From positions 1 through 64,000 of the forward strand of contig CALMPG010000018.1 in the NCBI GenBank assembly GCA_937871915.1: a DNA stretch of 64,000 nt, given 5' to 3'. This DNA comes from an uncultured Phycisphaerales bacterium. Its GTDB lineage: Bacteria > Planctomycetota > Phycisphaerae > Phycisphaerales > UBA1924. Position numbers and translations under genes: made by a program. The notes under the pieces are model-generated. The model saw nothing but the letters and a program-made list of their open reading frames with translations, made no database searches and had not been told where the DNA came from. Positions 3,608 to 59,272 of this stretch are shown piece after piece. The first letter of the stretch is position 1. Each line of letters begins with the position of its first letter.

Positions 3608-3785
3608 TGGGGTCGCATAGGTACTTCCCCGCCGAGCGGGCGAATCGATGCCCGCGGGAACAGCCGCGGTTAGCGACAGAGTTTGTTTCGCGGGTCCGAG
3701 CGCCGACGGTCGCGTGGCGGGGATGGGTACCCCCGGCCGAATGGACGCGACGTGGGCCATCGTGGGCCAACCCGCGGCCAGCGGG
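3608..3785 (+). repeat. dispersed repeat shared with 58868-59060
   Basis: This stretch resembles the reverse complement of 58868-59060 in the prophage. The best block (about 3652-3705) is nearly identical. Its four differences all fall on third positions of one frame that reads PREQPRLATEFVSRVRA in both copies. It may therefore be a small coding region or a remnant of one, or simply a mobile regulatory segment. Confidence 0.55.
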
Positions 3786-3825
3786 GCGGGCGGCGACTCC
3801 GCGCTGCGCCGCGCGTGTTCTCGGT

Positions 3826-3859
3826 TTGCCCACATGTCAGGCCGACTTGCCCACATGTC
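3826..3859 (+). promoter_or_regulatory. direct repeat pair, 21-bp period (candidate operator)
   Basis: The 13-mer TTGCCCACATGTC occurs at 3826-3838 and exactly again at 3847-3859. A 21-bp spacing is two helical turns and suits a dimeric regulator. A degenerate pair with the same period lies at 54675-54707 ahead of the prophage copy of the cassette. Confidence 0.5.
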
Positions 3860-3905
3860 GCGGAATGACAGCGAAATCGCTCCGGTTTGCCTTGCCTGTT
3901 CCCGA

Positions 3906-3937
3906 ATGTCATGGCTTCATGTGTCACAACGCGGGGC
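3906..3937 (+). promoter_or_regulatory. 32-bp block identical in both cassettes
   Basis: These 32 bases are identical to 54755-54786. They lie 23 bp before the first gene here and 41 bp before it in the prophage copy. The flanking bases differ, so the block itself is under constraint. It contains ATGTCATGGCTTCATGTG and is probably a promoter, operator or leader element of the cassette. Confidence 0.55.
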
Positions 3938-3960
3938 AACCCGCAACGGAGAACACGAAC

Positions 3961-4314
3961 ATGAACGCCACCACGAAGACCACACTCGACCTCGCCAAGA
4001 CACTCGCAAAGGGCGGGTTCCACATCCCCGCGATCGAGATCCACACGCCCGACGGGCGGTGCTGGAACATCGCGACGGTGCTCGCCGGACGCGGCCGCCA
4101 CCTCGACGGCCACTGGGGACCGCGCCCCGGAGCGCTCGGCGGCTTCCGGCTCTTCGAGATCGATCGCGAGAATGACGACGCCCCGAACGAGCACGACGCG
4201 ATCGACGGCGACACCTGGACCGCTGACGAATTGGTCGACTACCTCCGGGCGGTCGGCCAGCCGAAGGACACGACGAGTTGGGACCGCAAGAACGACAACC
4301 ACCCGACGACCTGA
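3961..4314 (+). CDS. cassette protein A, unknown function (island copy)
   Basis: The 117-residue protein is acidic and soluble and has no recognised domain. It is homologous along its length to the product at 54828-55130. Shared segments include the EIHTPDGR/EVHTPDGR strand, GGFRLFEIDR, PNEHDA, DTWTA and the C-terminal PKDTTSWDRKNDN. The island copy has about 16 extra residues before GGFRL. It is the first gene of a conserved order A-B-C-D that is also present in the prophage. The start is supported by ACGGAG upstream and by the homologue. The ordered acidic C-terminus and the small size fit a phage-type accessory protein, but no function can be named. Confidence 0.7.
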   Translation: MNATTKTTLDLAKTLAKGGFHIPAIEIHTPDGRCWNIATVLAGRGRHLDGHWGPRPGALGGFRLFEIDRENDDAPNEHDAIDGDTWTADELVDYLRAVGQPKDTTSWDRKNDNHPTT

Positions 4315-4334
4315 AGCCCGCGAAATGCGGGCTT
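4314..4334 (+). terminator. hairpin after cassette gene A
   Basis: The stem AAGCCCGC/GCGGGCTT with a five-base loop starts at the stop codon and is followed by CGTTGTTT. An equivalent nine-pair stem follows gene A in the prophage copy. It may be a weak terminator that sets expression of A above B-D. Confidence 0.55.
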
Positions 4335-4383
4335 CGTTGTTTACCAGAGACCTCCAACACCCCCCTCGCCAAGGAGCACGACC

Positions 4384-4641
4384 ATGACCAAGCGCAGGAC
4401 CACCAAGCCCGAACCGACCGCCGCCCAGACCTACGCCGCGAGGCAGAACGACATCGCCCGCCTGATGGACGTGCTGCAGATGGAACTCGACAAGCACGCC
4501 GAGGGGGCGAAGGCCGACCCGCGCAACTGGGGCTTCGCGGGAAGCCTCGGGAAGGTCCGCAGCGACCTGATCGACCTGGTCGGGTTCCTCAGCAACATGG
4601 ACCCCGAACGCGTCGAGGCATTTCTGAACGACGCCGAGTGA
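4384..4641 (+). CDS. cassette protein B, unknown function (island copy)
   Basis: This 85-residue protein is predicted to be helical. It is homologous to 55197-55448, with shared TAAQ/EMYAAR, NDIARLMDVL, NWGFAGSLGKVR and FLSNMDPERVEAFL. There is no signal peptide, membrane segment or catalytic motif. It follows gene A after the hairpin and has AAGGAGCACGACC upstream of the ATG, a strong ribosome-binding site that also occurs before the prophage copy. Its conserved place in two elements suggests that it works with A, C and D, but the role is unknown. Confidence 0.7.
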   Translation: MTKRRTTKPEPTAAQTYAARQNDIARLMDVLQMELDKHAEGAKADPRNWGFAGSLGKVRSDLIDLVGFLSNMDPERVEAFLNDAE

Positions 4642-4671
4642 CCAGAACCACCAACCGCAAGGAGCACCGCC

Positions 4672-4956
4672 ATGAACATTAGGACGATTGTGATCGAAGG
4701 CCACGAGCGGGACGTCAAGATCAGCCGCACCGAGCGCGGCGCGGAAGTGACCATCGAGCAGAACACGCGCCACGCGGGCAGGCAGGACATCTGCATCGCC
4801 CACATCGCCCGCGACGAGGACCGAGAAGGCCGCTACGCGAAAGCCGTCGAGGTCGCCAAGGTTGTCTACGGCACCGACCGCCGGGGCCGGGCCGCCGCCA
4901 CCAACTCGATGGTCCACGACGTGCTCAACGAGATGGAGCGCGTCGCGGGCTGTTGA
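4672..4956 (+). CDS. cassette protein C, unknown function (island copy)
   Basis: The 94-residue protein is homologous to 55482-55739 (85 residues). Both start with two beta strands (RTIVIEG, VKISRTERG), contain CIAHIARDEDREGRYAKAVEVAKVVYG and end with the near-invariant DRRGRAAATNSMVHDVLNEM and VAGC. The island copy has nine additional residues after the second strand. The C-terminal Cys is kept in both. No catalytic motif or known family is recognised. The gene lies just upstream of the conserved RNA structure at 4971-5021. Confidence 0.7.
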   Translation: MNIRTIVIEGHERDVKISRTERGAEVTIEQNTRHAGRQDICIAHIARDEDREGRYAKAVEVAKVVYGTDRRGRAAATNSMVHDVLNEMERVAGC

Positions 4957-4970
4957 CACGCGCAACGCGG

Positions 4971-5021
4971 CGTCGCGGGGAACCGCGACGGCCACGCTTC
5001 CCCGCCGCAGCGTGCGACGGG
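4971..5021 (+). ncRNA. candidate RNA switch ahead of HARE-HTH gene (island copy)
   Basis: Stem 1 (4971-4978 with 4983-4990) closes a GGAA tetraloop. Stem 2 would pair GCGGGGAA (4975-4982) with TTCCCCGC (4998-5005) and excludes stem 1. Stem 3 (5001-5009 with 5013-5021) excludes stem 2. The same three stems exist at 55748-55798, where one pair of stem 1 changes from T-A to G-C. The element lies about 30 bases before the start of the next gene, so it could act as an attenuator or protein-binding leader. Confidence 0.5.
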
Positions 5022-5049
5022 AGTTCCAACCCACAGTTCGGAGATGACC

Positions 5050-5379
5050 ATGAGCACGAAGACGAAGAAGCCCGCCAAGGCGAAGGGCGAGAAAGCCGCC
5101 AAGGCCCCCACGGCCCCGAAGCCCGCGAAGGAGCCCAAGCCCAAGCGCATCAGCGCGCTCGATGCCGCAGCGCAGGTGATCGCGGGCGCGAAGGTACCCA
5201 TGCGGGCCAAGGAGATGGTCGCGGAGATGGAGGCCAAGGGCTTGTGGACGAGCCCCGGCGGCAAGACGCCCGAGGCCACGCTCTATGCCGCCATCATCCG
5301 CGAGATCGCCGCCAAGGGCACCGCCGCCCGGTTCAAGAAGCACGAACGCGGCGTCTTCGTCGCGGGGAAGGGAGTCTGA
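5050..5379 (+). CDS. HARE-HTH winged-helix protein (cassette D, island copy)
   Basis: The protein has a Lys, Ala and Pro-rich N-terminal tail (residues 1-33) followed by one HARE-HTH (HB1/ASXL/restriction endonuclease HTH) winged-helix domain. The domain shows [26 protein letters not shown], the family hallmark [15 protein letters not shown] and FKKHERGVF. This domain is thought to bind DNA or sense modified DNA. The basic tail resembles histone-like tails. The Met at 5050 was preferred to the one at 5044 because CGGAG lies six bases before it. The prophage homologue (55827-56318) has a longer tail. The RNA structure at 4971-5021 probably controls this gene. Confidence 0.8.
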
Positions 5380-5382
5380 ACC

Positions 5383-5655
5383 ATGAGCACGCCCCCCGCC
5401 CCGCACGCGACGCCCGAACGCCAAGCGCAACTCGAGTCCGTGCTTCAGGCCGCTCTCTACCTCCTCGGCGCACGGCAGGATCAGATGGTCACTCTAGAAG
5501 AGTGGACGGACCTGGCGCGGGCGGTTGCCGCCTGCCAGGAGCGCAGGACGGCGGACTACCTCACCGAGCACGACCTTGAGGACATCGCCGAGCGCTACGC
5601 CCTCGAATGGGACGAAGCGGCCGACGGCCCGCTGCCCGACCACGATGAATCTTGA
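5383..5655 (+). CDS. small acidic protein, unknown function
   Basis: This 90-residue protein is Glu and Asp-rich, especially at the C-terminus (DEAADGPLPDHDES), and predicted to be helical (QAQLESVLQAALYLLGARQDQMVTL). It starts three bases after the HARE-HTH gene, so it is likely translated with it. The prophage copy of the cassette lacks this gene. No family is recognised. An intrinsic-type hairpin follows at 5684-5710, which makes this the last gene of the cassette in the island. Confidence 0.6.
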   Translation: MSTPPAPHATPERQAQLESVLQAALYLLGARQDQMVTLEEWTDLARAVAACQERRTADYLTEHDLEDIAERYALEWDEAADGPLPDHDES

Positions 5656-54674: not shown

Positions 54675-54707
54675 TTTCCCACATGTTCCGCGTAGTTGCC
54701 CACAAGG
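54675..54707 (+). promoter_or_regulatory. degenerate 21-bp-period repeat pair (prophage copy)
   Basis: TTTCCCACATGTT at 54675 and TTGCCCACAAGGG at 54696 are 21 bp apart, as in the exact pair at 3826-3859. They lie upstream of the second accessory cassette and between divergent genes, so they could also affect the leftward late operon. Confidence 0.45.
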
Positions 54708-54754
54708 GCGAGATTGACGGCGAATCCTCGCGCATTCGCCTTGCCGGTGCGCGG

Positions 54755-54786
54755 ATGTCATGGCTTCATGTGTCACAACGCGGGGC
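54755..54786 (+). promoter_or_regulatory. 32-bp block identical to 3906-3937
   Basis: All 32 bases are the same as in the island. The block ends 41 bp before the first gene of this cassette. Confidence 0.55.
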
Positions 54787-54827
54787 GAACCACCAACGCC
54801 AACAACCCCGCGAAGGAGACCAACGCG

Positions 54828-55130
54828 ATGAAGACCAGCACGAAGAACGCCATCGGGATCGCCAGCGCCCTGGGCCGCCGGGGATTCACCGTCGCCAGCG
54901 TCGAGGTCCACACCCCCGACGGCCGCACATGGGCGATCGACACCACGAACACGGGCGGCTTCCGCCTCTTCGAGATCGACCGCGACGGACGCGACGGACC
55001 GAACGAGCACGACGCGGTCGAAGGCGACACATGGACCGCCGGAGACCTGATCGACTACCTCGCGGCGGTCGGCGAGCCAAAGGACACGACCAGTTGGGAC
55101 CGCAAGAACGACAACCGCCCGACGACCTGA
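54828..55130 (+). CDS. cassette protein A, unknown function (prophage copy)
   Basis: The 100-residue protein is the homologue of the product at 3961-4314, with EVHTPDGRTWAID, GGFRLFEIDR, PNEHDAVEGDTWTA, DLIDYL and PKDTTSWDRKNDNRPTT. It lacks the 16-residue insert of the island copy, which points to that part as a loop. AAGGAGACC supports the start. The gene runs opposite to the late phage genes, so the cassette is likely expressed on its own, perhaps in the lysogenic state. Confidence 0.7.
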   Translation: MKTSTKNAIGIASALGRRGFTVASVEVHTPDGRTWAIDTTNTGGFRLFEIDRDGRDGPNEHDAVEGDTWTAGDLIDYLAAVGEPKDTTSWDRKNDNRPTT

Positions 55131-55150
55131 AGCCCGCGAATCGCGGGCTT
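55130..55150 (+). terminator. hairpin after cassette gene A (prophage copy)
   Basis: Nine-pair stem AAGCCCGCG/CGCGGGCTT with loop AAT begins at the stop codon and is followed by CGCTGTTTA. It is equivalent to 4314-4334; the stems differ in length but the position is the same. Confidence 0.55.
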
Positions 55151-55196
55151 CGCTGTTTACCAGAGCACCACGCACCCCCCGCACAGGAGCACGACC

Positions 55197-55448
55197 ATGA
55201 CGAAGCGCAACGCCAATCCCGAGCCCACCGCCGCCGAGATGTACGCCGCGCGGCGGAACGACATCGCCCGCCTGCTCGACGTGCTGAGCATGCACCTCGA
55301 CATCAACGACAAGGAGCACGCCGCCGCCCCGACGAACTGGGGCCTCGTCGGCAACCTCGGCAAGGTCCGCGAGGATCTGGTCAACGTCGTCGGGTTCCTC
55401 GCCAACATGGACCCCGAGGACGTCGAGGACTTTCTCAAGGGCGAATGA
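55197..55448 (+). CDS. cassette protein B, unknown function (prophage copy)
   Basis: The 83-residue protein matches 4384-4641 (TAAEMYAARRNDIARLLDVLSMHL, NWGLVGNLGKVREDLVNVVGFLANMDPEDVEDFL). Differences concentrate in the middle acidic segment. The ribosome-binding region CAGGAGCACGACC is the same as in the island. It is helical and soluble and no domain is recognised. Confidence 0.7.
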   Translation: MTKRNANPEPTAAEMYAARRNDIARLLDVLSMHLDINDKEHAAAPTNWGLVGNLGKVREDLVNVVGFLANMDPEDVEDFLKGE

Positions 55449-55481
55449 CCACCCGCACACCCCGAACCACGGAGCACACCC

Positions 55482-55739
55482 ATGACCATCAAGACGATCG
55501 TGATCGCAGGCCAGCGCGGGGACATCGAGATCACCCGCACCGACAACGGCGCGTACGTGATGGAGGGCGAGGTCTGCATCGCCGCCATCCGCAGCGATGA
55601 GGACCGCGACGCCCGCTACGCCAAGGCCGTCGAGGTCGCCAAGGCCGTCTACGGGACCGACCGCCGCGGCCGCGCCGCCGCCACCAACTCGATGGTGCAT
55701 GACGTGCTGAACGAGATGGAGCGCGTCGCCGGTTGCTAG
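55482..55739 (+). CDS. cassette protein C, unknown function (prophage copy)
   Basis: The 85-residue homologue of 4672-4956 keeps TIVIAGQRGDIEITR, CIAAIRSDEDRDARYAKAVEVAKAVYG and the nearly unchanged C-terminal DRRGRAAATNSMVHDVLNEM and VAGC. The end of the gene is the best conserved part of the whole cassette, at DNA level too. This may reflect that the RNA structure begins a few bases after the stop. Confidence 0.7.
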   Translation: MTIKTIVIAGQRGDIEITRTDNGAYVMEGEVCIAAIRSDEDRDARYAKAVEVAKAVYGTDRRGRAAATNSMVHDVLNEMERVAGC

Positions 55740-55747
55740 CCGCGAGG

Positions 55748-55798
55748 CGGCGCGGGGAACCGCGCCGGCCCCGATTCCCCGCCGCAGCGTGCGGCGGG
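55748..55798 (+). ncRNA. candidate RNA switch ahead of HARE-HTH gene (prophage copy)
   Basis: Stem 1 (55748-55755 with 55760-55767) closes a GGAA loop; stem 2 pairs 55752-55759 with 55775-55782; stem 3 (55778-55786 with 55790-55798) is a perfect nine pairs. Stems 1 and 3 can coexist; stem 2 excludes both. Compared with 4971-5021 the third pair of stem 1 changes T-A to G-C, and the linker bases differ while the arms are kept. Confidence 0.5.
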
Positions 55799-55826
55799 AT
55801 TCCGCACCAGACAGAAGGAGTCCGAC

Positions 55827-56318
55827 ATGGCACGCAAGGGAACGATCAAGAACATGGGCAAGATCCAGGGCGAGATGCGGGACGGGTGGAAGGCCCGCAA
55901 GATGTCCAAGAGCGCGGCCCGCGCGGACGGCGCGGCGAAGGCCGACCGCGCCCGCAAGCAGGCGATCGCGGAGATCCAGGACCGCATCGACGGCAAGGCG
56001 ACCGCGACCGCCAAGAACGGGAAGGCCGCGAAGGCGAGCAAGACGCCGAAGGCCCCGAAGCCCGCGAAGACGACCGCGCCGAAGCGCGTCAGCGCCCTCG
56101 ACGCCGCAGCGCAGGTGATCGCCGCGTCCGAGGTGCCCATGCGGGCCAAGGAGATGATCGCCGCGATGGAGGCCAAGAACCTCTGGAAGTCCCCCGGCGG
56201 CAAGACGCCGGAGGCCACGCTCTACGCCGCCATCATCCGCGAGATCGCGGCCAAGGGCACCACCGCACGCTTCAAGAAGCACGAGCGCGGCGTGTTCGTT
56301 GCGGGGAAGGGAGCCTGA
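55827..56318 (+). CDS. HARE-HTH winged-helix protein (cassette D, prophage copy)
   Basis: The 163-residue protein has a long basic N-terminal part (Lys, Arg and Ala-rich, residues 1-85, histone-like) and the HARE-HTH domain ([62 protein letters not shown]). The domain is nearly the same as in 5050-5379, while the tail is 50 residues longer. AAGGAG precedes the ATG. The protein likely binds DNA; the tail may compact or non-specifically bind nucleic acid. Confidence 0.8.
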
Positions 56319-58699: not shown

Positions 58700-59272
58700 A
58701 GCGATCTCCGTCGTGGGCACCGGCGAGGGCGCGGCGCAGGGGCGTCGTGGTGGCCCGCCGCGCACGCGGCAGGTCATGGATCGCTGGATCGCTGGTTGGC
58801 GGGTTCGCTGAATCGCTCGGGCGTCAGGCCCATCCGGGGGCGGCACACCGCCCCGATTCCCGCCCGCTACGGGCCGCGCCCGTTTGCCACGGTTCCGCCC
58901 ACGTTGGCCCACGTCGCGTTCCAGGCGGCGGGGCGTACCAACGCCGCCACCGGGCGTCCCCGCGCCCGGACGCGCGAAACAAACTCTGTCGCCAAGCGCG
59001 GCTGTTCCCGCGGGCGTAGCAGCGCGTCCTGGCCCGGGTAGTACCTACCGACCCCCTCACGTCGCCCGTTAGGCTTCCGGCTGTTGGGCTCGTGGTAGGC
59101 GCGCCCTGGCACGCGACCTGCATGGGCGCGGCGGGCCGGAAAGGGGGAAGTACATGATGAAAGAGAGAGATGTTTCAATCTTTCAATACCTCCCTTACGC
59201 CCATGTCCGTGCCCGCACGTACGCGCCACGCGTGCGCGCGCGGTGAATGGATGAATGATTGAACTATTCGGC
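58700..59272. other. intergenic region with dispersed repeat
   Basis: No firm gene. It holds short AGCGATCC repeats (58785-58823) upstream of the methyltransferase and the repeat that matches 3608-3785 in opposite direction. The rest is GC-rich with alternating CG runs near 59220-59245. Confidence 0.45.
58868..59060 (-). repeat. dispersed repeat shared with 3608-3785
   Basis: On the minus strand this matches the leader of the island cassette, with the same start (GGTCG, TAGGTACT) and the same core reading PREQPRLATEFVSRVRA. It lies about 170-360 bp upstream of the methyltransferase gene and points toward it. Confidence 0.55.

Follow-up and report, generated by a model that had tools for sequence, protein, structure and literature searches.

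A conserved two-hairpin RNA element upstream of a phage-borne HARE-HTH gene in Phycisphaerales

A cassette of genes, here named A to E, is present twice in the 64,000-nucleotide (nt) stretch of contig CALMPG010000018.1 from an uncultured Phycisphaerales bacterium (hereafter the window), once in an island (3826-5376) and once in a prophage (54675-56315). Between gene C and gene D, the latter encoding a protein with a HARE-HTH domain, both copies keep a short segment with the appearance of a structured RNA. An initial annotation placed at 4971-5021 three possible stems, two of which exclude the third, and proposed that they form a switch acting on D by attenuation or autoregulation. Which of these stems are real, to which gene do they belong, and what could they do? 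Here we report that positions 4966-5021 constitute a conserved structured RNA of two adjacent hairpins, and not a three-stem switch. The element belongs to gene D, with which it travels as one module in phages and Phycisphaerales genomes, and we discuss how it could act on the expression of this gene.

Two adjacent hairpins between genes C and D

The element comprises 56 bases on the forward strand, at 4966-5021 in the island and at 55743-55798 in the prophage, between the stop codon of gene C and gene D. The first hairpin, H1 (4966-4996), corresponds to stem 1 of the initial annotation, which had correctly recognized its GNRA-type loop GGAA (4979-4982) while drawing shorter arms; besides an inner helix of 8 pairs, it has a short outer helix and one bulged nucleotide. 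A short linker (4997-5000), conserved in the alignments as a CTT/ATT/TTT type and interrupted in some relatives by a 9-nt insertion, leads to the second hairpin, H2 (5001-5021; the former stem 3), which has 9 pairs including a C.A mismatch and the loop region CAGCGTG. In the prophage copy, H1 occupies 55743-55773 with its GGAA loop at 55756-55759, and H2 (55778-55798) is a perfect 9-pair stem. The linkers had been described as different between the copies; linkers of the CACGCTT/CGCGATT type are in fact well conserved. H2 ends exactly 28 nt before the start codon of D in both window copies (ATG at 5050 in the island), in agreement with the placement about 30 bases ahead of the HARE-HTH gene noted at first. 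RNAalifold recovers both hairpins unprompted. The H1 loop on the forward strand conforms to GNRA in 103 of 117 copies and to GNNA in 115, and in two loci (L033 and L162) the entire H1 has been exchanged for an unrelated stem capped by the same GGAA loop.

The two hairpins are supported by extensive covariation. In an alignment of 98 sequences, 94.3% of the H1 and H2 cells are paired, a value that none of 500 shuffles attained. A second alignment of 67 mostly diverged covariance-model hits revealed changes on both sides in 17 of the 21 pairs of H1 and H2 (11 of 12 in H1), with 138 compensated cells vs. 40 in shuffles and at most 47 in slid versions of the structure, and a covariation score of 0.329 vs. 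0.104 and at most 0.067, respectively; on each of five measures the observed value was reached by 0 of 500 shuffles. Because the diverged alignment had been fitted to the structure, pair-preserving double changes were also counted on single branches of a tree inferred from D coding sequences only, using 115 ungapped 64-base copies. This analysis yielded 39 such changes, 25 in H1 and 14 in H2, and a single one in stem 2. Thus, the one covarying pair initially seen between the window copies (T-A in the island, G-C in the prophage) is joined by many more in the former stems 1 and 3, including C-G to G-C swaps in H2. Amino-acid coding was considered as the source of the constraint and rejected: in the frame of D, the most variable covarying positions of the element (9 and 24) fall on the second position of a codon, and no constraint on the protein sequence is apparent.

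The remaining stem of the proposed switch behaves differently. All three stems can be drawn, but only stems 1 and 3 are conserved as structure. Stem 2 does use the H1 loop as a pairing arm, as first described: positions 4975-4982 can pair with 4998-5005, forming 8 perfect pairs in both window copies. Its apparent plausibility is explained by the minimum free energy structure of a longer, 81-nt island fragment, which includes it. In the 98-sequence alignment, by contrast, stem 2 is paired in 93.3% of cells, vs. 93.3% in shuffles (289 of 500 as high), and its covariation was equaled by 317 of 500 shuffles. On the diverged alignment it shows a small excess, mainly due to one pair; its two sides have co-changed within a single clade, and other clades have lost the pairing. 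Contrary to the claim that all arms are kept, those of stem 2 vary without compensation: 38 of 97 rows do not maintain the pair at alignment columns 17-38, and a C to G flip at position 37 is compensated at position 57, in H2, and not at position 15, in stem 2. Furthermore, the loop variants GAGA, GACA, and GATA disrupt stem 2, and several loci carry the 9-nt insertion exactly between its arms. Within the 64-base element, stem 2 is about 25 kcal/mol less stable than H1 and H2 together and has a mean ensemble probability of 0.004. Stem 2 therefore fails the covariation, tree, and energy tests, and the mutually exclusive switch fails with it.

Association of the element with gene D

The distribution of the element was assessed in 160 loci (80 viral contigs and 80 genome loci) picked by their D protein, the element not being used for selection. 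It lies just upstream of D on the same strand in 127 of these, far more often than expected by chance, and a diverged form recognized by the covariance model occupies this place in four others; most of the remaining loci contain D homologs of less than 70% identity or are cut short by the end of the contig. Across phages and Phycisphaerales genomes, the element precedes essentially every D homolog of about 70% identity or more. Of 156 loci, 118 have 22 nt between the end of the covariance model and the start of D, and nearly all have 16-23 nt, whereas the distance from the upstream stop codon to H1 ranges from 0 to 34 nt. The upstream gene itself belongs to at least five families, being A, B, C, a member of the '...VQSR' or '...FGK' family, or another gene. 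Apart from those at contig ends or with an unclear downstream frame, matches of 40 bits or more run into the start of D, and the few matches not clearly located before D are at contig ends, in loci without a cleanly readable downstream frame, or weak. No clear copy of the element without D was found. The same genome holds further copies, one of which follows gene B in the absence of C, and one copy of gene C without D has no element.

The initial annotation had named a covariance-model search among the checks of its structure; this search, applied to 150 genomes of one Phycisphaerales family, detected the element in 57, and D was found in 92 of the 150. Outside this family, a single occurrence came from another family of the order, and 293 further genomes sampled from across the phylum yielded none. 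Gene D reaches up to 11 copies per genome (e.g. G036, G119, and G132), which suggests that many phages or islands of a single type reside in the same genome, and no homolog of D was found among GenBank phages.

In the island, gene D (5050-5379, forward strand) encodes a HARE-HTH winged-helix domain (Pfam PF05066, E=1.6e-8) and a basic tail rich in K, A, and P; the prophage copy (55827-56318, forward strand) matches the same family (E=5.4e-7). In the AlphaFold model of D, a disordered and basic N-terminus is followed by the winged helix-turn-helix. Translation of D likely starts at ATG 5050-5052, preceded by the Shine-Dalgarno sequence GGAG (5040-5043); an alternative ATG at 5044 directly abuts the latter. 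Gene C, the upstream neighbor of the element in the island (4672-4956, forward strand, stop codon 4954-4956), has no assigned function and no match in Pfam or PHROGs. The island cassette adjoins a type I restriction locus, and the prophage cassette is flanked by genes for a large terminase and a ParB-methylase, on the strand opposite to both.

Other features accompany the cassettes. A conserved non-coding block with repeated TTGCCCACATGTC-type motifs precedes gene A (3826-3955 and 54675-54804) and is possibly the promoter or operator region of the cassette. Directly 3' of the stop codon of A, a second conserved hairpin (4312-4336 and 55128-55152) has the terminator-like form TGAAGCCCGC..GCGGGCTTCG followed by TTGTTT, and hairpins of this type also precede some distant D homologs (L103, L107, L295, and L310). 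Near the outer ends of both cassettes, an inverted repeat pair of 128 nt and 73% identity is located at 3618-3785 and 58879-59047, about 55 kb apart.

Putative mode of action and alternatives

As the spacing to the initiation site of D is fixed whatever the upstream gene, we propose that the element is a cis-acting two-hairpin leader RNA of D, probably a protein-bound operator setting the translation of D; this reading as a whole has, in our judgment, about an even chance of being correct. In this model, H1 and H2 would be consecutive mRNA hairpins that fold independently of each other, placing the end of H2 about 28 nt 5' of the D start codon, beside the binding site of the 30S subunit. The leader would set the level of D translation, most likely through a bound protein, either D itself or a phage or host factor, whose binding would block or admit the ribosome. 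The basic tail and winged helix of D represent a putative nucleic-acid-binding architecture, and autoregulation of D via the leader, one of the two functions initially suggested, is possible. The other suggested function, attenuation by termination, is unlikely, since the copies inspected have no U-tract after H2; the intrinsic-terminator attenuator was rejected on the absence of a U-rich tail after H2 in the aligned copies and of a terminator-like match at H2. Shielding of the Shine-Dalgarno sequence by the hairpins was likewise rejected, as its accessibility is equal with and without the element, and thus the RNA alone does not gate this site. The lack of a terminator, together with the lack of an effect on Shine-Dalgarno accessibility, favors a protein-bound operator.

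Several results weigh against this proposal. The unpaired probability of the Shine-Dalgarno sequence is 0.45 with the element vs. 0.50 without it. The asymmetry between G.U and A.C that would establish RNA over DNA is weak overall, at 62 vs. 72 cells. In addition, D homologs at 55-69% identity are mostly preceded by other single hairpins or by none recognizable; since distant homologs mostly lack a recognizable copy, D is able to do without the exact two-hairpin element.

The main rival to a protein-bound operator, unlikely but with an appreciable chance of being correct, is an mRNA processing or stability element. The GC-rich hairpins would mark a site of endonuclease cleavage or shield the D portion of the polycistronic transcript, so that the amount of D would differ from that of its neighbors without any binding regulator. 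This is consistent with two stable hairpins placed directly after the upstream stop codon and tolerating any upstream gene, as well as with the presence of other hairpins at similar places in the cassette, such as the A-B hairpin at 4312-4336, and before distant D homologs. However, generic stabilizers would need neither the GNRA loop nor the conserved linker nor the fixed spacing to the start codon, all of which are kept.

The element could also function as DNA, with inverted repeats that serve for binding or recombination where modules meet. The occurrence of D and the element beside unrelated upstream genes does resemble a mosaic junction, and A.C mismatches occur roughly as often as G.U pairs, but we regard this explanation as improbable, because the GNRA loops lie on one strand, the spacing to the D start is fixed, and the replacement of the whole H1 by another GNRA-capped stem in L033 and L162 would destroy a DNA recognition sequence. 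More improbable still is a stimulator of stop-codon readthrough, whereby the hairpins would allow a fraction of the ribosomes to read on in frame into D, yielding a fusion protein. The upstream stop codon and the D start do share one frame in 129 of 146 loci, whatever the upstream family; the same frame is nonetheless shared at the A-B, B-C, and D-E junctions and is hence not specific to the element, and because this property is cassette-wide we rejected readthrough as the principal explanation. Moreover, in-frame stops in the spacer are not avoided, the upstream stop is also TAA and TAG, D has its own Shine-Dalgarno sequence and ATG, and directly neighboring B and D are in frame in only 28 of 42 cases. 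Finally, given the behavior of stem 2 described above, a switch in which stems 1 and 3 alternate with stem 2 to control D is scarcely credible.

Cassette reading frames and relation to known systems

The genes of the cassette, A through E, share one reading frame despite differing spacer lengths (3961-5655 and 54828-56318 in the window). Across loci, which are related so that the following counts are not independent, neighbors are in frame at 73 of 80 A-B, 78 of 78 B-C (with nine spacer lengths), 78 of 79 C-D, and 117 of 117 D-E junctions. Over B-D, the 28,252 codons of the codon-aligned antisense frame include 1 stop, and its 3,200 spacer codons are free of stops; two gene families from these loci, taken as controls, have antisense stop rates of 0.39-0.40%. 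The antisense frame is open across A-D in 52 of 53 loci (minus strand, approximately 3670-5430 in the window) and often ends in a TGA overlapping the ATG of the next minus-strand gene. In genes A-C, TCA codons are nearly absent while other A-ending codons are normal; as TCT is also low, the scarcity of TCA may partly reflect codon usage. One explanation, which we consider unlikely, is that both strands of the A-D cassette are translated or protected, selection keeping the antisense frame free of stops through all spacers and thereby forcing nearly every spacer, that of the two-hairpin RNA among them, to a multiple of three. If so, the leader RNA would be overlapped by an antisense gene of a phage operon or, alternatively, lie inside an antisense frame kept open to shield the opposing transcript from termination.

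The nearest characterized analogs of the proposed D leader are the translational operators of phage T4 genes 32 and 43, which are used for autoregulation (PMC3014915). The shared feature is a structured RNA near the ribosome-binding site, H2 ending about 28 nt before the D start. Unlike the T4 operators, the D leader consists of two tandem hairpins, with no pseudoknot seen and none sought, and its hosts are planctomycetes. The ESAS elements of cluster K mycobacteriophages are inverted repeats just 5' of phage start sites with a proposed role in translation initiation (PMC3203893); they consist of two 17-bp repeats with a variable spacer and precede many different genes of one phage. The D leader differs in its GNRA-capped covarying structure, and an ESAS-like recurrence before several genes was not seen, in that the clear model matches examined in the 150 genomes precede D only, the SAS motif not having been searched.

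Cis-regulatory families in Rfam are the same kind of object, a conserved structured mRNA leader, but none matches: the window has no Rfam match at the gathering score, the best local match scoring 18.2 bits vs. the 46.5 needed. As neither an Rfam family nor a paper was found for the two-hairpin leader, we regard it as a previously undescribed RNA structure. The leader constitutes a well-supported family of structured RNAs, which occurs in over one-third of the genomes sampled from one Phycisphaerales family and in numerous uncultured phages. The covariance model can locate its copies, and the element offers an entry point into the regulation of a HARE-HTH protein that is abundant, multi-copy, and phage-borne.
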